This document shows positions 8,273 through 23,208 of a DNA stretch of 23,208 bases, in pieces. Numbering within the stretch: the stretch's first letter is position 1; each line of letters opens with the position of its first letter. The DNA is from a virus. The translations under genes and the position numbers were made by a program. The notes beneath the pieces are model-generated. The model ran no database searches. It worked only from the letters and a program-made list of their open reading frames with translations, and was not told where the DNA came from. Location: positions 1 through 23,208 of the IMG/VR virus record IMGVR_UViG_3300032163_000108. One strand, written 5' to 3'.

Positions 8273-9049
8273 TCAGTTCCCCCAATCCTGCCAGTCCCCT
8301 GCGAACGGAGGCACGCTGGTCTCCCCGGAGGCGTCGTCCCCACCCCGCCAAGAGGGCTCCGAGCCCCCTTCGTAGTCGATGTACTCGTAGACCTTGGCGC
8401 TCTTCAGGGGGACTAGGTCCTCGGTGTACTCGTCGGCGTAGAAGGTCCCCAGCATGGAGAACTGGACGGCGGCCTCGTAGCTGACCAGCTCTGGGTCCCA
8501 CGGCGTCCCCATCGAGATGGTGTCCCCCACGGCGTCCACGGACCCCTCCATGATGGTCAGCCCGACCAGGTCGTGGTTCTCCAGGGTGGTGTAGAAGTTG
8601 TTGGTGGCGCTGCGCTTGCGCCCCATCATGATGAGCTTCACTAGGTTGTCCCAGATGCGGTCTCGCTCTTCAGAAGACAGGGCGAAGATCTGGAGCATGC
8701 AGGTGGCTTCGAAGCGCCCCTGGCGGATGAGCTTGTAGCTGGGTGCATCCGGAGCCGGAGAGTCAGCAGTCGTGGAGTGGTCGATCGAGTCCGAGAAGTT
8801 GGCCGCGTCTACCACCTCGTCAGGCATGATGCCTGTCCACTCGACGACGGAAGGCCTGACCTGGACGAGGATGAATGGCCAGTCCTGGGACTCCTCCGGG
8901 TACTCGACCGTGATGCGCCGGGGGAGTGGCTTGTCGTTCAGGGTTAGCTGTGGGTTGTAGGTGTGGGCCTCCTGCCCGTCGTTCCCCCCCTGGTACCAGA
9001 CGCTGCGGAGGGATTCAACGATGGCCGACTTGATTGCGACCAAGAACAT
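8273..9049 (-). CDS. Neck protein, candidate tail terminator
   Basis: A 258-residue protein whose ATG at 9049 overlaps the previous stop by one base (TGATG). The frame is open further upstream inside the gp10-like gene, but that extension has unnatural composition, so the coupled ATG is preferred. Visible elements are ITVEYPEESQDWPFILVQVRP, trimmed here to a beta-strand pair around residues 47-68; GRFEATCMLQIFALSSEERD (~112-131), then WDNLVKLIMMG, and near the end FSMLGTFYADEY. The alternation of strands with the segment ALSSEERDRIWDNLV resembles tail terminator or connector proteins that cap the tail tube. It sits between the gp10-like gene and the sheath gene, the expected location. The C-terminal ~30 residues are Gly/Ser/Trp-rich and probably disordered. 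Confidence 0.5.
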   Translation of the reverse strand: MFLVAIKSAIVESLRSVWYQGGNDGQEAHTYNPQLTLNDKPLPRRITVEYPEESQDWPFILVQVRPSVVEWTGIMPDEVVDAANFSDSIDHSTTADSPAPDAPSYKLIRQGRFEATCMLQIFALSSEERDRIWDNLVKLIMMGRKRSATNNFYTTLENHDLVGLTIMEGSVDAVGDTISMGTPWDPELVSYEAAVQFSMLGTFYADEYTEDLVPLKSAKVYEYIDYEGGSEPSWRGGDDASGETSVPPFAGDWQDWGN

Positions 9050-10671
9050 CAGGCACCCACCTTCTTGAATCTCCCAAAGAATTTCCCAAGCTCTCCGCCA
9101 GAGTTCTGAAGGGCCTCTACCATGTCGTCTGACTTCATGCTCCGGAAGTACTCCTGGATGGCTTGTGTCAGGGCCGGTTGGATGAAGTTCATTGGCTCTA
9201 CCCCGGGGAAGCGCCAACGGATCTTCGAGTAGATGATCTTGCCGCCCTCGTCCCTGGTCAATATCTGAGGCTTGCCCACGTTCTTGGCGACCCTAAAGCT
9301 GATGGAGCCGTTCGGACCCCTAATTGGAATCGTATTATGAGTGAGCGTGTAGCCCGAAGTGACGTAGAGTCCATCCTCTGCCTCAACCGAAATGCACTGC
9401 ATGGGGACGCGGACTCCTTCGGCTACCACCGACTGGATATACTTCCTATCTGCCTTCCCTTTTCTGTTGGAAATGGTAGTTAGATAGCGATTCAATCTCT
9501 TTTCCAGAGGGGCTCTAAAGGGGATCAGATCTTGAGGAAGAGACAGAGTCACCCTCCAACAGGTACGGTCTTGTCTGAATCTTTTGCATGTGTTCACCGA
9601 TGCTCGGCCACCTAAGGACCTAGCAAGGTTTGCAACCCCATCGGCCAAATCTTTACTGGTCGAAGTGAATCCGACGTAAGGGACCCCGTTGAATAACTGA
9701 CAGTGTCCATCAGTATCTAACAACCCCTGGAGCACCATCAATCGATCTCGTATCGAAGCGAATAAATACTCTTCGGGAATGTGCTTCTCCCAAGCTCTTT
9801 TACCCCAGAGGTTTAGCTTTCGGAGAGCTTCTGAAAGTGGGTTACGTTGATTGTCCTTGCCGTGGTAACCTCCGGCGTTCCATCCTTTCTTCCCAGCGAC
9901 TATCCTCCATGAAACACTGCTGTTAGGGTAGGAATTCGACCTATACATGGAAAATTCTTCGGGAAGGACTTTCTTGACCTCATCTATCACTGCCTCTTCA
10001 CCTTCGCCCGCAGAAATAGCAGGACTAGCAGAGACGATACAGCCATCACCAAGAAGTACTCCCAAAAGGTATGGGTGGATGGGAAGCACTCCTCCTGGAG
10101 AAAACTCGATAGGGCCAGGAGTGTCAACGGACCACGTCTCGTGCATCATGCGCGACAGATACTCGGTAGAGACGGTCCTATGGTAGAGATTCCTTCTCCT
10201 GACAGTCCACAGATGATCTCCGCTACACCGTGCAAAAGTCCCATCGCTGAAATTAACAAGATACTGTTCAAGCTCTCCTTGTGGGAATACTCTAACTATC
10301 CGAGTCGCCTGCCCGCTAGAGCCGATGACTTCATCTCCCACTGCAAGCAGCCCCATAGGGACCCACCCACGTGGAGTTAGGATCGGCTCGTCGAGCCCCT
10401 GTGCCTTCCCCTCAAGTGCAGTCATCACGAAGGGCTGAATCCCCTGGTCGAGGTAGAGCAGGTGTATGGCCTGCGGAGGGATATGGATGCCGATCTGCCC
10501 GCGCTGCCACGTTGCCCTCACGAGGCGGCGGCTGTTGTTGGGGCCCACTGGGGCGGTCCTGCGGACTATCTCGGCAGCACGCAGGGATATCTGGTGTGCA
10601 ACATCAGGGGAGATGGGTATCTGCTTACCACGGTAAAACACCTCACCCGAACCTAACGCCCTGTTAGCCAA
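9049..10671 (-). CDS. HK97 gp10-like neck protein interrupted by an intein
   Basis: A 540-residue precursor. Residues 1-89 and 447-540 join into a protein of about 183 residues after splicing. The joined extein reads ...PFVMTALEGK-TIPIRGPNG..., and near its end VEPMNFIQPALTQAIQEYF resembles the PFxxPAL signature of HK97 gp10-like head-tail joining proteins. The first codon is TTG at 10671, overlapping the previous gene's TAA by 8 bases; an in-frame GTG at 10641 is an alternative start. Residues 90-446 are the intein described separately. Splicing must occur for this virion protein to fold, because the intein splits the globular core in the middle. The assignment to the gp10-like group is by pattern; the interruption is certain. 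Confidence 0.75.
   Translation of the reverse strand: MANRALGSGEVFYRGKQIPISPDVAHQISLRAAEIVRRTAPVGPNNSRRLVRATWQRGQIGIHIPPQAIHLLYLDQGIQPFVMTALEGKAQGLDEPILTPRGWVPMGLLAVGDEVIGSSGQATRIVRVFPQGELEQYLVNFSDGTFARCSGDHLWTVRRRNLYHRTVSTEYLSRMMHETWSVDTPGPIEFSPGGVLPIHPYLLGVLLGDGCIVSASPAISAGEGEEAVIDEVKKVLPEEFSMYRSNSYPNSSVSWRIVAGKKGWNAGGYHGKDNQRNPLSEALRKLNLWGKRAWEKHIPEEYLFASIRDRLMVLQGLLDTDGHCQLFNGVPYVGFTSTSKDLADGVANLARSLGGRASVNTCKRFRQDRTCWRVTLSLPQDLIPFRAPLEKRLNRYLTTISNRKGKADRKYIQSVVAEGVRVPMQCISVEAEDGLYVTSGYTLTHNTIPIRGPNGSISFRVAKNVGKPQILTRDEGGKIIYSKIRWRFPGVEPMNFIQPALTQAIQEYFRSMKSDDMVEALQNSGGELGKFFGRFKKVGA
9334..10404 (-). mobile_element. Class 3 intein with LAGLIDADG endonuclease
   Basis: A 357-residue intein, precursor residues 90-446. 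It starts with Ala (AQGLDEPILTPRGW) and not with Cys or Ser, and ends TLTHN before Thr447. The three residues that define class 3 inteins (WCT) are present: Trp155 in block B (GDHLW), Cys426 in block F (QCISV) and Thr444 in block G (LTHN). In this class the block F Cys makes the first branched intermediate. Two dodecapeptide motifs, YLLGVLLGDG (201-210, Asp209) and VLQGLLDTDG (313-322, Asp319/Asp321), keep their acidic residues, so the homing endonuclease looks intact. The N-terminal boundary before Ala90 is chosen because it restores the natural GK-TIPI extein; one or two residues of uncertainty remain. Confidence 0.85.
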
Positions 10672-12033: not shown

Positions 12034-12822
12034 TTAGGCTAAAGAGGACACCGCGATGCCCTTTAGGTAGCGGCGTAACTGCTTGCGGGACCACTCAACA
12101 TCAATAACAGGATCGTACTGATGTAGGAAAGAAGATAGATCCGACTCCCACACGACCTCGCAGGAGAAGCCAGCCTCCTTGTACCACTCGACTGTAGCTT
12201 CAGGATCGTCACCGAGGTGCCAATAGTCTCCGAAAAGTTCTAGGACCTGCTTCTTACCTCGCTTCTTAAAGTCGGGGCAGCGAGTAATGCCTTGGCCAAC
12301 AACAAAAAATCCCCCATCTCCGGTGTGGCGGTATCCTATGGACTCCAGGATCGGCGCGATGAGCATCTCCAATTCGGAGAATGTCCGACCACCCATCTTC
12401 CCCTCGGCGTAGGCCTTCTTCGTGGCCTGGCGCATCTTCTCCTGGTACGCGGGGTCCCGGGTAAGCTTCTGCATCGCAGCTTTACGGCGCTCTTGGCGTT
12501 CTGGGTCGGCCCAGTAGAGTTCGGTGCGGCGACCGATTGATTTCTCAATACGCTCCGGAGAGTACTCCTGATTTAGCAACCCTTCAATGCGCTTAGCACG
12601 CACTTCTGGGTCCCTCCATAGTTCGGCCTGCGCAGTGGACATCTTGGCTTTGGATTCACCCGAGAACTCGCGCCCCTCGGCTGCTGCACCAATCTTGGCC
12701 TTGGATTCATCGGTGTGCTTACTGCCTGTGTGGCCCTTGTTCTTGGCGCGATATTCTGGATCAGCCCATCGCGCCTTGGCGCGTTCGGATGCTGCTCTGT
12801 GCTGTTCTTCCGTCCACTTCAT
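12034..12822 (-). CDS. Free-standing homing endonuclease, NUMOD3-like plus VSR-like nuclease
   Basis: A 262-residue protein with an excellent ribosome binding site (GGAAGGAGG five bases before ATG). The N-terminal ~140 residues are basic, with NUMOD3-like stretches (GSKHTDESKAKIG, FSGESKAKMS) and four W/L-x-x-DPE-type repeats (RWADPEYRAK, LWRDPEVRAK, YWADPERQER, LTRDPAYQEK), likely DNA-binding helices. The C-terminal domain has SELE (Glu150), CPDF (Asp184), VLELFGDYWH (Glu195, Asp199, His202) and VVWESDL. This is the arrangement of VSR-fold nucleases, including EDxHD homing endonucleases from phages. It has no relation to its neighbours, both neck genes, and separates the connector gene from the neck gene that lacks a normal start. 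Free-standing homing enzymes are common in such late operons. No group I intron core fits in the ~100 flanking bases. Confidence 0.82.
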   Translation of the reverse strand: MKWTEEQHRAASERAKARWADPEYRAKNKGHTGSKHTDESKAKIGAAAEGREFSGESKAKMSTAQAELWRDPEVRAKRIEGLLNQEYSPERIEKSIGRRTELYWADPERQERRKAAMQKLTRDPAYQEKMRQATKKAYAEGKMGGRTFSELEMLIAPILESIGYRHTGDGGFFVVGQGITRCPDFKKRGKKQVLELFGDYWHLGDDPEATVEWYKEAGFSCEVVWESDLSSFLHQYDPVIDVEWSRKQLRRYLKGIAVSSLA

Positions 12823-16392: not shown

Positions 16393-17271
16393 CTAGGAGG
16401 GGTTAGACACTAGGAGTGAGAGGAAATCCTCGGGGGAATCGGCCTTGCGGAGGATCTCCAAGAAGGGCTGATCCACGAAGGTAATCCCAGGAACCTCGCG
16501 CTGGACCTGCCTACTACGGCCATCCATCCACCCCTTCACATCCACGATAACCGAATCGCCAACGATGAAGTCGGGGCGGTACTTTCCACCCGAGTACTCA
16601 TATGCAGGACCATCGTAGCGGCGGATCGGGACCTTGAGGAAACCGCAAGTGCCGTAGAAGAGGCTTTCCCACGTGGAATCCAGGATGATAGCATAATCTC
16701 CCTCATTCACCCCGATCTTCTTCTTGAGGATGCCTCGCTTGGCGCAGGCGTTGGAGCAGAACTTCTTGGCCGAGGGATAGTTGATGGGCACGGTCTTCTC
16801 CTCACCGCAGCCGAAACAAGTAAAGGTGACCTGGGAACCCTTCTTAAAAGTGGGCTTCCCGAACTTGTTCCTACAGGCGTCAGAGCAATACATCCTCCAG
16901 TAAGTTGATCCACCACGGGTAGTAGAACGTGGAATAGATTCACCGCAGGCACATGTAGGATCATGGCGCTGGCTCTCGTTGCGACACTTCGTGGAACAGA
17001 ACTTCTGTGCCACCTGCTTACGTATATAGGATTGGCCACACTGCTCACACGTGCGATGCCTGTCCGCCTCTCTTGCTGCATACATGCACTTGGGAGAACA
17101 GAATTTCTGCCTGGTGGGCTCCTTGGGTACAAACTCCTCCTTACATGAAGGGCAGATCTTAGTACGGCGTGCTGCCGCAAGTTGGCGGCAAGATTCAGAG
17201 TGATAGCGCTGGGCCTTGACTGCGTTGAATCCTACTCCACAGTGAGAACATGCCTTCATAACCATGTTCAT
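16393..17271 (-). CDS. Zinc-knuckle array plus PD-(D/E)XK nuclease, probable homing endonuclease
   Basis: A 292-residue protein inserted between the major capsid gene and the next head gene. Residues 1-180 carry about five Cys-rich knuckles of the type CxxC...(K/R)FCSxxC: Cys8/11 with 28, 40/43 with 58/62, 75/78 with 92/96, 107/109 with 129/133, 152/155 with 172/176. The C-terminal ~100 residues contain WESLFYG (Glu202), YRPDFIVGD (Asp234) and VIVDVKGW (Asp244, Lys246), the layout of a PD-(D/E)XK nuclease active site. The array likely reads a DNA target in the capsid gene region. The ribosome binding site is poor (GGTAAGAT before ATG 17271; ATG 17259 is possible). The mixture of fingers and this nuclease type is less common than HNH or GIY-YIG homing enzymes. 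Confidence 0.75.
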   Translation of the reverse strand: MNMVMKACSHCGVGFNAVKAQRYHSESCRQLAAARRTKICPSCKEEFVPKEPTRQKFCSPKCMYAAREADRHRTCEQCGQSYIRKQVAQKFCSTKCRNESQRHDPTCACGESIPRSTTRGGSTYWRMYCSDACRNKFGKPTFKKGSQVTFTCFGCGEEKTVPINYPSAKKFCSNACAKRGILKKKIGVNEGDYAIILDSTWESLFYGTCGFLKVPIRRYDGPAYEYSGGKYRPDFIVGDSVIVDVKGWMDGRSRQVQREVPGITFVDQPFLEILRKADSPEDFLSLLVSNPS

Positions 17272-17350: not shown

Positions 17351-17371
17351 TCATAGGCGATTAGCCTATGA
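17351..17371 (-). other. Perfect inverted repeat overlapping the capsid gene stop
   Basis: TCATAGGC and GCCTATGA form an eight-base-pair stem with a five-base loop, and the TAG of the major capsid gene lies inside one arm. No T run follows on the minus strand. A stabilising or attenuating hairpin after the most highly expressed gene is a natural reading; it may also mark the border of the nuclease gene downstream. Confidence 0.5.
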
Positions 17372-18388
17372 CTTTATGATCCTACCCAAGCCCCTGGGGT
17401 TCAAAACGGACATGGCGACAAGCTCGTCCATGACCCAACCCTTGTGGAACTTCTCGACGGTGTGGTTCTCCTCGACGTCCAGGGAGTACATGACCGGGAA
17501 CACGCCGAGGAACTCGGGTGCCGGGGTCAGGTACACGGTGCCAGCCGGGACTTGGATCGAGCGCTGGATCTGGAACTCACCGAAGGTGAGGATCTTCTCT
17601 CCAGCGACGACGCGGTCCTTGAAGCTGATACCAACCTGGTTCAGGTCCCACTTGTAGAGGTCCCTGTAGTCGGCGGGGTTCATCAGAAGCCTTGCAGCCT
17701 CCAACTCGTGGACGTCGATCTTCGCAACTAGGTCGTAGAAGCTGTCAGGGGTCAAGTAGCCCGAAAGCTCGTTGACCTCGTGGGCTCCAGTCGACACTAG
17801 GTGGTCGGCGTTGGTCCCGTAGCCGGTGATCGCAGTATCGAGGACGGTCACTAGTCGTGCGTCCTCCTGCTTCATGACGGACTGCTTGGACTCGTCCTGC
17901 GCGTACTCGACGATGTTCACGCGAAGGTACCAAAGATCTTCCTTCTTAACCTGCGGGAACGTCGCAATGCGGAACAAGCGAACCGGCGCCTTCTTGCCCT
18001 CGAACGGGGTAACTCGTACCTCGCCCTCGTTGCCGTGAAGGATGTACGCCTGGCCTAGATCGTCCAGGATGTCGTACTCAACCGGGATACCAGGGGTCAG
18101 CGGGTCCTCTAGGAGGACGTTGCGGACCATACCCTGGTAGCGGAGCTTGAGCTGGATCGGGCCGATCATACCCTGGCCCAGCCTCTTCATGTAGTTCTCC
18201 TTGTCCGAAAGGATGGCAGCTAGACGACGCTGCTTCTCACGGGTAGAGACTACGGTCGTTCCACGGGCTTCCTTGAGCTTCGCCTGAGCGCGAAGGATCT
18301 CGGCGACATAGTCGTCGGACTTCTTCGCAACACGAGGCAGAAGGTCAGCATTGTCCACCAGTGGAGCCGGGTTGGCTGCTCTAGTCAT
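17366..18388 (-). CDS. Major capsid protein
   Basis: A 340-residue protein with ATG at 18388 and GGAG 11 bases upstream. Residues ~20-75 are a charged helical arm (DDYVAEILRAQAKLKEARG, KQRRLAAILSD). The central part (LWYLRVNIVEYAQDESKQSV, ITGYGTNADH) and the C-terminal part (AARLLMNPADYRDLYKWD, GEFQIQRSIQVPAGTVYLTPAPEFLG in sense, shortened: a strand-turn-strand P-domain-like segment, then GVFPVMYSLDVEENH) match an HK97-fold capsid subunit. The size, the location after the protease and decoration genes and the strong start agree. It builds the icosahedral shell. It is followed by a hairpin and then by the inserted nuclease gene. Confidence 0.8.
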   Translation of the reverse strand: MTRAANPAPLVDNADLLPRVAKKSDDYVAEILRAQAKLKEARGTTVVSTREKQRRLAAILSDKENYMKRLGQGMIGPIQLKLRYQGMVRNVLLEDPLTPGIPVEYDILDDLGQAYILHGNEGEVRVTPFEGKKAPVRLFRIATFPQVKKEDLWYLRVNIVEYAQDESKQSVMKQEDARLVTVLDTAITGYGTNADHLVSTGAHEVNELSGYLTPDSFYDLVAKIDVHELEAARLLMNPADYRDLYKWDLNQVGISFKDRVVAGEKILTFGEFQIQRSIQVPAGTVYLTPAPEFLGVFPVMYSLDVEENHTVEKFHKGWVMDELVAMSVLNPRGLGRIIKS

Positions 18389-18935: not shown

Positions 18936-21900
18936 TTACAGGAATACAGCGTAATCGTCGGCCGGGTCATCCTCTTCTACCACTGAGCGTGAAACGCTAC
19001 CCAGCGACGGCATACGGATTGGACCCCTGTCCTCGGATGCAGCAACACGAATCCGCCTGCCCGCGACCTTGATCTCCTTGGCCTTGAACTCACGGGTCGC
19101 CTGGATGAAACCATCCAGGGTCGCGTCATCCATCTCTTCGAAGCGCGCAACGTCGGCGTACTTCTCGGCCTCGACTGAAAGTCCGAGGTCGATGCGCTCG
19201 TCGACGAAGTTGGCACAACGAAGAACCTTCGTCTTTGCAGCGGCGATGTGCTGGTCCTCACGGGCCTTCGCTTCTGCGACTCGGGTTGCTTCTTCTTCAA
19301 CGGCGGACTTCTTGTGCTTGCTCGAAAGCTCACACGGCCCGCAGTTGCAAGACCCGTCAGGGCACTCGCAACCGGCCTTGCACTTGGCTGCCTCCTTCGT
19401 AGAAGCCTCAACCTGTGGGTTGACTGGCTCATACGGACGGAGAGCGGCGTCGTTGAAGGGGTTTACCTGCTGTGGCAGGCGCTCACGGAAGGTATCAGCA
19501 ACCGGGAGACCAGTTCCCTGGCCTAGATTGATGACATCCGAGGTGTCTGCTAGTAGCAACTGCTCGGGCTGCTCGATGGCCTTCATCACGTCGATTGTCG
19601 CGTCGGCGCCTACGTCCACTGGGGGCGGGGCGTCGAGGTCACGCACGTCGGTCTGATATACGGCCTCAGCCTTCTTCTCGAACTCATCAGCACGCTCACG
19701 AAGCGCTTCCGCGCGCGCGATGAAGAATTCAGCCTTCCTATCCTGCTGGGACGCGGCCTTCCCTTGTCCCTGGCTGTTCAGCGCCTCGCCTGCCTGCGAT
19801 CCCGGCGGTGGGGTAGTCCCTGGGCCTTGCGGCTGGTTGACTACCGTCACGCCGGACTGGCCGACGGGGCCTGATACATCAGGAGCGTCCAGGTCCTGCA
19901 CGACTGCGGGCGCAGCGGGTGCTGGCTCCAGTGCAGGTTCGAATCCCTCAAGCGGGGTACCACCGGGGATGGCCTGGCCATACGGTGGGACCGAGTTTGC
20001 GGGGGACGTGTCCTGGCGGTAGGTCGGGTCCTGCGGTAGAGTAGCTTCCTTAGCGAAGCTATCAAATCTACTCACAACGTGGTCCTCCTTCCCGCTCTTC
20101 TTCTTATTGTCGTCCTTGGCTTTTTCTGGTGGGGCTTTCTTCTTGCCCTTATCTTCCGAGTCACCCTTGTCCTTGGGCTTGGACTTATCCTTCGAAGGCT
20201 TAGCCTCCTGATTGGAATCGTCCTCGCCTGACTCTGGTGCTCCGGGAGCGGGTGGGCCTTGGGCCCCACCTTCCTCCGATTCGTCCTGAGGGTTCCCATC
20301 TGGCTTCCCCATCGGCATAGCAAGGCCGAGTGGGTCAGTGTTTGGGTCGCCAAGCCCCTCAGGCGGAAGTTCGAATCCACAGTTCTTTGTCGTGATGTTC
20401 TGCACGACATAACTATGGTCTACCCCTACATTCAGATTGAAAACTGGCCCACAGTACGGGGTGAGTTCCAGTTCAGTTATCTGGGCTAGGGGCGTATCTT
20501 GGAAGTTCCAGGTACCACGCTGGCCCTTGTGCGTTCGCTCTAGGGTTGCTACGTGGCCAGTAACCCGATAAACGTCCTTCTTATCATCATGGACCTCTAT
20601 ATTCATCGTCGGTTGGAGTCCAAGCCTCCGACTGACCTCCATCACCTGGAGGGCGAGTACCTCAGATGTCTGCCCCAAGCGGGGATACTTAGTATCTCCA
20701 TCTCCATCGTGGATACCCTCGACGATGATCCGGAGTTTCTCGTTGGGCAGTGTTATCAGCTCGTTTGGGATGTGCTTATTTGCGGAACCACTCCCGAGCC
20801 ATACCGGGAACCATTCACCCAGCGTAGAACTATTCACTTGGACTATCGCACTATCTGAATCTAGATTGAATCGGAGCGAGGTGGTATACCCAGCAGCTTC
20901 GAAGAACGCCCGTACTCGCTCTTGGTATCCAACCTCATCCCGGTGTAGGGAAAAGGTAATCCCCCTAGTGGCGCCACAACCCTCTGCAAGGTAGAGCCCG
21001 ATGACCCAAAGGAATTCATCGGTCAGCTTGAAGGATGTTAGTCCGCGCCGCTCACGCTTCCCCTTGAAGGGCTCTGGGACCTCGACAACCTCAATATCCC
21101 TGACCGACCGATCCAGGGTCATCGAAACCCAATCTCCTACCTTCAAATCCTGGATAGGCTTCCAATCTAAGATGTGATTTCTATTGGCTTCGTTCAATAT
21201 CTCCCTAGGACACTCGGTACCCACTTCCTTGTTACAGAAGGAAGGGAGGCAACCCTGGTGGTCCGTCGTCGGAACCAAAACCCGCAGTGGGTGCTCCGGA
21301 GTAACCAGGACCGGGGAGGTCATAGTTGAAGTCCTCAGGCTGTAGACAAGGCCGTGGACCTCATGCTCGTAGACTTTCTGGACTTCATGGTATTGACCAG
21401 ATTCAGTGAGGACCTTTTCTCCTACCTCAATCGTAGAGATGGGGGCGTACCCACTCTTGGTCCTTACTAATGTATCTGGACCAAAGCAGTTGGTGCAGAC
21501 CATGCCGTTCCACTCTGATCCACAGTTGTGGACCACAAGGTTCTGAATGACATAAGTCGGATCGTTCTCTACCTCTAGGTTGTAAACTGGCCCAATGTAT
21601 GGCACTGCCTCGTTGCGGGTAATACGAGAGAGGGTTGTTCCCTCAAACTTCCACGTTCCACGCTTAGTTTCGTGAGTGCGCGAAAGAGTTGCGACGGTCG
21701 TACCATTGACTGTATAGACTGCCTTCTTGCCTTCTGGATATTGGGTTGAAATCGTAGGCGCTCCGCCGTTTCTAAGTGCCACTTCGGTTATTTGAAGCGC
21801 AAGAACTGGCGAGGTCTGTCCGATGAGATCACGGGATCTGGTCCCGTCTCCATCGAAGATTCCCTGGAGTACGATGTTGACCTTCTCTAGCGGAAGAGTC

Positions 21901-23208
21901 ATTAGTTCTTCGGGTATACTCTTGTTTGCACTGCCACTCCCTAGCCACTGTGGGAACCACCTAGCGAACACGGAGTTGTAGACCTCGACGGTTACTCCAT
22001 TTTCGCCACGTTCCCATGTGCGGGAGTTGATTCCGAACTGAGAGAAGAAGTCTATGATCCGCTGCTGGTAGGCCATTTCATCAGCGTGGAGTCCAAATGA
22101 TAGGGCGCGCTTCCCACCCGAACCTTCAGCGACGTAGAGACCCACAATCCAAAGGAAATCGTCATTAAGTGGAATCGTACTGGGCACCTTTGATGCATAG
22201 CGGAAGCAGTCTGCTGGGACTTCTACGCTCGATATTTCCTGCTCAACCGAGGGAAACCCCAGGGCGACGTATGTCTTCTCAAGGTCTTCTGTAGCCACCC
22301 ACTCTAGGTGGTGGTGCGTTCTTGCAGCATCCCTTTTCAGATTATGTCTACATGATCCAGAAGGAAGGCAGTCTAGGCGGCGCTCTTCTTGCTCCTTACC
22401 ACCTTCAACCTTACGGTGATACCCAACCATGGCTCGCAATGGATGCTCACCAGTCATCCGAATCGGACGTATCGTCGAAGTAGTCTCGATCTCCCTCAAG
22501 AGTCCCGAGAACTGATGTTCATAGACACTGAGGACCTTATTGAAGTCCCCTGATTCGGTCAGAACCTCATCGCCCACCTCAATGGTACTGATCGGCACGT
22601 GGCCGTCACGGGTACGGACGAGCGCTTCGGGGGTAAAGCACTGTGGGCAGTTCAGTTCGTCGCGCAGGGTGTCTACCTCCTGCGGCAGGCTCATCAGGAC
22701 CTTGTCGGCCGTGAACTCAAACTTGCAGTCAAGGCAATTGGCCCCGGTCTTTGAAATCGATATGTCCGTACTACCGCAGGCCTGGCAGAAGTCCGAGGTC
22801 CTGATGGAGGCGACCTTCACCAAGGAGGTCCCCAGGCGCTCGCTGTAGGCGGCGATGGTCTCGCGGCTGCGGCGGAGGTGGGCGAGGGAGCGGTTCCCGG
22901 CTGATGCGAGCATCACGTCAGAGATGAGCGCCGACTCGTCGGCTGGATCGAAGACGAACGAGATCTCGAAGAACGAGACGCCGTAGCAGTCCTCGTAGCA
23001 TAGCTTCTTGATGCGGCTGCCGGTCTTCTGGTCGAGGGTCTCGACTACCCGGCCCTTCATCTGGGGGATATGGGTGCAGTACTGGAGTACGTCGTGCGCC
23101 TTGTTGCTACAGACGGAGCAGATGGTGTACTCGACGTCAGCACCCATGGAGACCGAGTCAATGTCGCCATCTATGATGGCCTGGGCGAGCTTGGGGAAAG
23201 CCTGGGCA
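18936..23208 (-). CDS. Prohead protease/scaffold-like protein with two inteins, 5' end outside window
   Basis: The frame enters from beyond 23208; the ATG at 23147 is internal. Numbering from that ATG there are 1403 residues, of which 741 are intein. After splicing at least 682 residues remain. The N-terminal extein (DGDIDSVSMGADVEYTICSVC, shortened: DSVSMG, CSVC...YCTHI, and GVSFFEISFVFDPADESALI) resembles U35/prohead protease-like maturation proteins, whose FxEISLVxxPAxxxA strand is characteristic. Two zinc ribbons follow: Cys121/124-138/141 and Cys167/170-551/554. The C-extein has a charged Lys/Asp/Glu linker (~950-1022), a helical segment (~1130-1165), a six-Cys cluster (1256-1272) and a scaffold-like C-terminus. 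It probably combines maturation protease and scaffold; catalytic residues cannot be assigned because the N-terminus is missing. Confidence 0.65.
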   Translation of the reverse strand, partial: AQAFPKLAQAIIDGDIDSVSMGADVEYTICSVCSNKAHDVLQYCTHIPQMKGRVVETLDQKTGSRIKKLCYEDCYGVSFFEISFVFDPADESALISDVMLASAGNRSLAHLRRSRETIAAYSERLGTSLVKVASIRTSDFCQACGSTDISISKTGANCLDCKFEFTADKVLMSLPQEVDTLRDELNCPQCFTPEALVRTRDGHVPISTIEVGDEVLTESGDFNKVLSVYEHQFSGLLREIETTSTIRPIRMTGEHPLRAMVGYHRKVEGGKEQEERRLDCLPSGSCRHNLKRDAARTHHHLEWVATEDLEKTYVALGFPSVEQEISSVEVPADCFRYASKVPSTIPLNDDFLWIVGLYVAEGSGGKRALSFGLHADEMAYQQRIIDFFSQFGINSRTWERGENGVTVEVYNSVFARWFPQWLGSGSANKSIPEELMTLPLEKVNIVLQGIFDGDGTRSRDLIGQTSPVLALQITEVALRNGGAPTISTQYPEGKKAVYTVNGTTVATLSRTHETKRGTWKFEGTTLSRITRNEAVPYIGPVYNLEVENDPTYVIQNLVVHNCGSEWNGMVCTNCFGPDTLVRTKSGYAPISTIEVGEKVLTESGQYHEVQKVYEHEVHGLVYSLRTSTMTSPVLVTPEHPLRVLVPTTDHQGCLPSFCNKEVGTECPREILNEANRNHILDWKPIQDLKVGDWVSMTLDRSVRDIEVVEVPEPFKGKRERRGLTSFKLTDEFLWVIGLYLAEGCGATRGITFSLHRDEVGYQERVRAFFEAAGYTTSLRFNLDSDSAIVQVNSSTLGEWFPVWLGSGSANKHIPNELITLPNEKLRIIVEGIHDGDGDTKYPRLGQTSEVLALQVMEVSRRLGLQPTMNIEVHDDKKDVYRVTGHVATLERTHKGQRGTWNFQDTPLAQITELELTPYCGPVFNLNVGVDHSYVVQNITTKNCGFELPPEGLGDPNTDPLGLAMPMGKPDGNPQDESEEGGAQGPPAPGAPESGEDDSNQEAKPSKDKSKPKDKGDSEDKGKKKAPPEKAKDDNKKKSGKEDHVVSRFDSFAKEATLPQDPTYRQDTSPANSVPPYGQAIPGGTPLEGFEPALEPAPAAPAVVQDLDAPDVSGPVGQSGVTVVNQPQGPGTTPPPGSQAGEALNSQGQGKAASQQDRKAEFFIARAEALRERADEFEKKAEAVYQTDVRDLDAPPPVDVGADATIDVMKAIEQPEQLLLADTSDVINLGQGTGLPVADTFRERLPQQVNPFNDAALRPYEPVNPQVEASTKEAAKCKAGCECPDGSCNCGPCELSSKHKKSAVEEEATRVAEAKAREDQHIAAAKTKVLRCANFVDERIDLGLSVEAEKYADVARFEEMDDATLDGFIQATREFKAKEIKVAGRRIRVAASEDRGPIRMPSLGSVSRSVVEEDDPADDYAVFL
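20382..21488 (-). mobile_element. Intein 2 in the protease/scaffold protein
   Basis: A 369-residue intein (precursor residues 554-922), inserted CTN^CGFE. It starts CFGPDTLVRTKSGYAPISTIEVG, trimmed to the block A pattern Cys-x-x-x-T-L-V, has block B PEHPLR, and ends VDHSYVVQNITTKN before Cys923. LAGLIDADG-type motifs WVIGLYLAEG (714-723, Glu722) and VEGIHDGDG (809-817) are intact. Block F His911 is present, but the penultimate residue is Lys921 in place of the usual His. It is a paralogue of intein 1, sharing ISTIEVG, VLTESG, VYEHE/Q and WLGSGSANK. Confidence 0.9.
21525..22640 (-). mobile_element. Intein 1 in the protease/scaffold protein
   Basis: A 372-residue intein (precursor residues 170-541), inserted CPQ^CGSE. 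It begins with Cys170 (CFTPEALVRT), has block B TGEHPLR, and ends NLVVHN before Cys542, so both splice junctions have a nucleophile. The endonuclease motifs WIVGLYVAEG (333-342, Glu341) and LQGIFDGDG (427-435, Asp434) look functional. Block F reads VYNLEVENDPTY: the His commonly found there is replaced by Pro530, while the penultimate His540 is kept. Its extein downstream is only 12 residues long before intein 2 begins. Confidence 0.9.

Follow-up and report, generated by a model that had tools for sequence, protein, structure and literature searches.

Two sister inteins interrupt the two knuckles of one zinc-ribbon-like segment in a phage head maturation protease homolog

The interrupted gene and its two inteins

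The window analyzed here, a whole virus record of 23,208 bases from IMG/VR, contains on its minus strand a frame of 1,423 codons (18936-23207) that is free of stops throughout and has lost its 5' end at the contig edge. The encoded protein matches phrog_2774 (E = 1e-26) and the head maturation protease family phrog_18299 (E = 1e-5). The gene order is protease, an ORF of 168 aa and major head protein (phrog_2522, E = 3e-107), and the same order is found in Rhodococcus phage Finch, Mycobacterium phage Phrappuccino and Gordonia phage RedWattleHog, in the last of which the counterpart gene is annotated as a capsid maturation protease. The phrog_18299 similarity and the place near the major head protein gene bear out an earlier note on this DNA, which had taken the host for a protease/scaffold protein. 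A structure model of the intein-free homolog L053 (mean pLDDT 53, too weak for ribbon geometry) gave several matches to herpesvirus proteases, with E values of only about 0.1 and a best probability of 0.85.

The N-extein holds the C-terminal part of the protease domain (DSVSMG, C-x2-C...C-x-H cluster, FFEISFVFDPAD), followed by an uninterrupted ribbon and then by VDTLRDELN-CPQ. The C-extein continues from CGFELPPEGLGDPNT into a low-complexity, charged, scaffold-like region and then into a C-terminal part that matches homologs, with which it also shares the aligned motif PPEGL.DPDT. A Cys-rich cluster near the C-extein end is possibly a further metal site.

Between the outer exteins, positions 20382-22640 comprise intein 1 (I1), a middle extein and intein 2 (I2) (Table 1). 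The earlier note had claimed two inteins 12 residues apart in one ribbon, and this stands: its coordinates and letters are correct, the frame is open and the intein models match. In each knuckle, one insert lies immediately before the second Cys. The middle extein supplies the second Cys of knuckle 1, which is the +1 nucleophile of I1, together with the first Cys of knuckle 2. Once the exteins are joined, the sequence reads CPQCGSEWNGMVCTNCGFE, with the C-x2-C-x8-C-x2-C spacing that had been proposed, and the peptide across both junctions would read ...DELNCPQCGSEWNGMVCTNCGFELPPEG....

Table 1. Features of the window, with the basis of each assignment where one is given (^ marks an intein junction)
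Feature	Positions	Strand	Description
N-extein	22641..23207	-	189 aa, ends ...DELNCPQ; phrog_2774, phrog_18299, alignment to phage and IMG/VR homologs
Second, uninterrupted ribbon CQACGSTDISISKTGANCLDC	22725..22787	-	just upstream of VDTLR, from sequence
CPQ	22641..22649	-	first Cys of knuckle 1 and final residues of N-extein; Cys invariant in homologs
I1	21525..22640	-	372 aa, junction ...HN^C, terminus ...NDPTYVIQNLVVHN
I1 motifs	22119-22157 and 21840-21872 (LAGLIDADG)	-	Cys1; TGEHP block B; two LAGLIDADG motifs
Middle extein CGSEWNGMVCTN	21489..21524	-	12 aa; gapless match to uninterrupted ribbons
I2	20382..21488	-	369 aa, junction ...KN^C, terminus ...VDHSYVVQNITTKN
I2 motifs	20976-21014 and 20694-20726 (LAGLIDADG)	-	Cys1; TPEHP block B; two LAGLIDADG motifs
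I2 Cys+1	20379..20381	-	second Cys of knuckle 2; Cys invariant in homologs
C-extein	18936..20381 (18939-20381 without stop)	-	481 aa, starts CGFELPPEG
Cys-rich cluster CKAGCECPDGSCNCGPC	19332-19382	-	near C-extein end
Major head protein gene	17366..18388	-	phrog_2522
Predicted HNH endonuclease gene	16393-17271	-	phrog_1271, E = 6e-28
NUMOD3-containing gene	12034-12822	-	homing-endonuclease-like
Third intein	9334-10398	-	about 355 aa, EGKAQ^GLDEPILTP...YTLTHN^T, inside ORF 9049-10671

The inserts match Hint_2 (E = 7e-19) and LAGLIDADG_3 (E = 6e-9) of Pfam and TIGR01445 (intein_Nterm) of NCBIfam, the last with 29.4 bits against a cut-off of 24.5. A Pfam YajC match on both inteins falls in the Hint region and was taken as chance. 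I1 and I2 each carry the class 1 set of Cys1, T-G/P-E-H, terminal Asn and Cys+1, and their LAGLIDADG pairs have acidic residues (VGLYVAEG/QGIFDGDG and IGLYLAEG/EGIHDGDG). In a fold model of the precursor of modest confidence (pLDDT 60.6, pTM 0.33) the same series of strands and helices appears twice, and the model matches intein and homing-endonuclease structures, TliVMA, PI-SceI and I-DmoI among them (best match 7qsu, E = 4e-14). GC3 is lower in the inteins (0.55-0.59) than in the N-extein (0.86) or the other genes (0.72), which would fit acquired elements. Cys is scarce in the neighboring genes of this phage, with 18 of the 28 Cys in the non-intein genes examined lying within the host protein, so that an intein requiring Cys+1 would find few sites.

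The two inteins differ in their helper His residues, each lacking a different one of the two that most relatives keep: in I1, Pro replaces the block F His and the penultimate His is retained, and I2 retains the block F His and ends in Lys-Asn, with Lys for the penultimate His. Splicing is known for inteins without the penultimate His (Ssp DnaE, by the title of its structure as cited in PMC6805012). Judged from their residues, both I1 and I2 may still splice, perhaps at differing speeds. The same two substitutions would also fit decayed or cleaving inteins, the protein being cleaved at a knuckle so that its N-terminal protease domain acts by itself, and the existence of minimal relatives of 220-237 aa, which are the protease domain alone, points the same way. 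We regard such decay as unlikely, since the frames are open, Cys1, TxxH, Asn, Cys+1 and the endonuclease motifs are intact, one His is kept in each intein, and the C-extein is still recognizable against homologs. For both inteins we infer efficient splicing in vivo and cutting by their endonucleases; given the loss of the block F His in I1 and of the penultimate His in I2, either may splice slowly or cleave.

The uninterrupted ribbon in relatives

To find relatives we searched IMG/VR and GenBank phages with a profile of the N-terminal domain, which yielded 87 distinct proteins. An uninterrupted C-x2-C-x(n)-C-x2-C ribbon follows straight after the conserved VDTLR in 38 of them; it is absent there in 35, and the other 14 are short and end soon past the protease domain. 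The spliced window sequence VDTLRDELNCPQCGSEWNGMVCTNCGFELPPEGLGDPNT aligns without gaps to the ribbons of most relatives, as in L053, where VDTLRDDDVCPQCGSPFNGIECDNCGYITPPEELQDPDT corresponds to VDTLRDELNCPQ, CGSEWNGMVCTN and CGFELPPEGLGDPNT of the window taken in order. The four Cys (C277, C280, C289 and C292) are invariant among 16 aligned intein-free homologs, an alignment from which the GenBank rows were left out, and also in 13 ribbon rows. The search for intein-free homologs had been set beforehand as the refuting test of the joined ribbon, and its 38 distinct orthologous, uninterrupted copies rule out a chance ribbon. Because these relatives carry the ribbon uninterrupted, they define what splicing must restore. 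Moreover, the invariance of the Cys in ribbon-bearing relatives supports the suggestion that both +1 nucleophiles are ribbon ligands.

In database comparisons the ribbon gave a weak Pfam zinc-ribbon match, below the cut-off, and weak PDB matches to rubredoxin and MetRS. With its two conserved CxxC(G) knuckles, the joined ribbon weakly resembles a zinc-ribbon/rubredoxin-type pair and is a putative metal site.

The window also bears the uninterrupted ribbon CQACGSTDISISKTGANCLDC, 75 bases upstream of the interrupted one, and most homologs have a single ribbon here. A MAFFT alignment of 17 rows set this upstream ribbon as the ortholog, which was rejected on the VDTLR anchor and on the ungapped match of the interrupted one.

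No ribbon-sited intein, single-intein forms included, was found in the 86 other relatives. A DNA pattern for single-intein homologs at site 1 (VDTLR, four residues and CxxCF) gave five matches, all unrelated. Scans with the entire protein, either that of the window ORF or that of Eggerthella phage LE2-3, found no relatives, and a scan of genome contigs found one, which has neither ribbon nor intein. The double-intein ribbon arrangement is represented by one genome only.

Origin of the intein pair

I1 and I2 share 46% protein and 56% DNA identity, and they form a sister clade with support of 100/98 in a tree of 13 inteins and of 97/99 with nine inteins. In IMG/VR, the inteins nearest to them are six full-length ones at one site of an unrelated virion protein, inserted at NDCHV^CYG (L090, L091), SRCPN^CHG (L099), SDCTL^CFG (L185), NDHHL^CYG (L183) and ADHEL^CMG (L184). 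All eight inteins, I1 and I2 included, precede the second ligand of a C/H-x-x-C knuckle. The relatives that were aligned (L090, L091 and L099) contain an insert that matches phrog_99 and looks like an AP2-type DNA-binding segment (AP2-like), and this insert is absent from both I1 and I2. Searches of plasmids and GenBank phages for intein relatives found distant inteins only, about 24-26% identical. Compared with I1 and I2, the six relatives are alike in an identity of 42-45% (those aligned) and in their position before the second knuckle ligand; they differ in that there is one intein per gene, in another virion protein and with the additional AP2-like insert, and two of their contigs exceed 300 kb.

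The sequences show a LAGLIDADG intein in each knuckle, the two being sisters; their splicing would restore the ribbon, and we consider it likely that one of these homing inteins was copied into the second knuckle. As to direction and mechanism, we infer that, most simply, one knuckle-targeting homing intein, from a lineage whose sampled members are sited before the second ligand of C/H-x-x-C, would have entered one knuckle and would then have spread to the other, whose DNA partly repeats it. The duplication, if real, is old, I1 and I2 being only 46% identical. Repeated target DNA (TGTGGAT after both junctions) was tried as a proof of duplication and rejected: the I1 and I2 sites match at 17 of 30 nt, which is within the 10-18 of 30 between the two knuckles of intein-free relatives, and the repeat is thus only permissive.

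The two knuckles could also have been invaded separately by two members of this lineage that came from other phages. The lineage is indeed present in other phages, neighboring inteins of archaeal mcm come and go independently (PMC10643990), and the tree would look no different if, instead of a duplication, a single unsampled lineage had supplied both inteins. Nevertheless, I1 and I2 are mutually nearest (100/98), both are without the AP2-like insert, and no single ribbon-sited intein occurs among the 86 other homologs, which makes separate arrivals rather unlikely. Because the source is an IMG/VR virus contig, an assembly artifact that set allelic inteins of a mixed population in tandem has to be weighed as well. 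It is highly improbable, as I1 and I2 are too divergent for collapse and each intein has its own knuckle with orthologous extein on either side.

Class 1 inteins splice by an N-S shift at Cys1, transfer to Cys+1, cyclization of Asn and an S-N shift. In each of I1 and I2, the N-S shift would leave Cys1 in a thioester with the preceding residue, the chain would transfer to Cys+1, itself a ribbon ligand, Asn would cyclize, and an S-N shift would join the exteins; two such reactions would restore the full ribbon.

Ribbon formation, metal and comparison with known systems

The earlier note further took formation of the ribbon to require the exit of both inteins, and maturation to be gated by double splicing. 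Neither claim is supported, as stated, by the present data. Because each intein begins with Cys and precedes Cys, the knuckle letters are intact in the precursor, which retains CPQ-C and CTN-C. The chain from which only I1 has been spliced, CPQCGSEWNGMVCTNC-FGPDT..., has four Cys at normal spacing, the fourth being the catalytic Cys1 of I2; a four-Cys ribbon could form once I1 alone has spliced, and it could then bind metal. As to maturation, DSVSMG and all protease parts come before both inserts, and 49 of the 87 homologs are without the ribbon, which is thus not a general requirement.

It might nevertheless be that a knuckle-bound metal controls the inteins. In this version CPQCGSEWNGMVCTNC would close on a metal through Cys1 of I2 and delay I2, and the order of splicing and the metal level would set the yield. 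All four Cys are present in the I1-spliced intermediate, the ribbon resembles zinc-ribbon and rubredoxin knuckles, and other inteins are blocked by zinc on a catalytic Cys: in M. smegmatis DnaBi1 the block is reversible and seen in a crystal structure (PMC7360933), and in the Prp8 intein it is reversible with a Kd near 1 nM (PMC6805012). Against this, the same geometry would arise with any Cys1 intein that precedes the second Cys in a CxxC knuckle, so that selection is not required, and the lack of the ribbon in more than half of the homologs makes a regulatory need doubtful. We hold metal control of this kind to be improbable. Quite unlikely, too, is a metal-dependent relay, in which I1 would splice first and Cys1 of I2 would be held as a ligand until the metal is lost or exchanged, or else cross-splicing between I1 and I2. 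If the relay were true, assembly of the scaffold half would follow the metal state. If the I1 N-half spliced with the I2 C-half, the protein would be shorter and would carry a single chimeric knuckle, CPQCGFE; two of the four Cys would be lost if the outer exteins were joined directly (CPQCGFELPPEG, 12 residues skipped), as had been predicted.

Neighboring inteins are already known. To our knowledge, no other inteins stand only 12 residues apart in one putative metal site with both +1 nucleophiles as predicted ligands of the same ion, and a literature search covering few subscription journals found no such pair. The arrangement is confirmed and unusual, and it is built of known elements. The haloarchaeal MCM (MCM-a and MCM-d) is alike in having neighboring LAGLIDADG inteins at conserved sites of one gene, but there the sites are in the ATPase domain of a cellular helicase and were invaded by separate inteins (PMC10643990), whereas in the window sister inteins occupy sites 36 bp apart in a single metal ribbon, which belongs to a structural protein of a phage. 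Two neighboring homing inteins in archaeal mcm hinder joint homing into an empty allele (PMC10643990), and the same burden is expected for I1 and I2 because their sites are only 36 bp apart. M. smegmatis DnaB likewise has two inteins per protein (PMC6195587), one of them a mini-intein (PMC10643990), and zinc blocks one through its catalytic Cys (PMC7360933); however, the gene and the intein lineage are different, and no zinc liganded by the host protein at the splice site is reported there.

Another counterpart is LE23_71 of Eggerthella phage LE2-3, an intein-bearing homolog of the same host protein. Unlike I1 and I2, its intein is inserted just after DTVSMG and not in the ribbon, CPICGSPDFDGIYCDVC, which is uninterrupted, and it is only 27-30% identical to them. 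LE23_71 (L004, 4617-7730) is annotated as a tRNA synthetase and is a head maturation protease homolog; the likeness of its ribbon to the zinc ribbon of MetRS may account for the mistaken annotation. The LE2-3 portal protein, at the start of locus L004, also bears an intein. Furthermore, a portal-like phage protein (L094) has two inteins that both end in GTYN^S, with a middle extein of 51 residues.

This naturally occurring double-intein gene could serve to test how cross-splicing is avoided between two inteins of the same chain, whether control of an intein nucleophile by a host metal site is possible, and whether homing inteins can spread within a gene by way of internal repeats such as its two knuckles. 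For the double-intein precursor, the intein-free relatives are the exact control protein.

The window has at least five mobile elements of nuclease type in about 23 kb: three inteins, an HNH gene and a NUMOD3 gene. The predicted HNH endonuclease gene comes next after that of the major head protein, on its downstream side, and the NUMOD3-containing gene lies between virion genes. The third intein has no Cys1, a Trp near block B (GDHLW), a block F Cys (QCISVE) and Thr+1, and from these residues it looks like a class 3 intein; the C-extein of its host protein matches phrog_2819.
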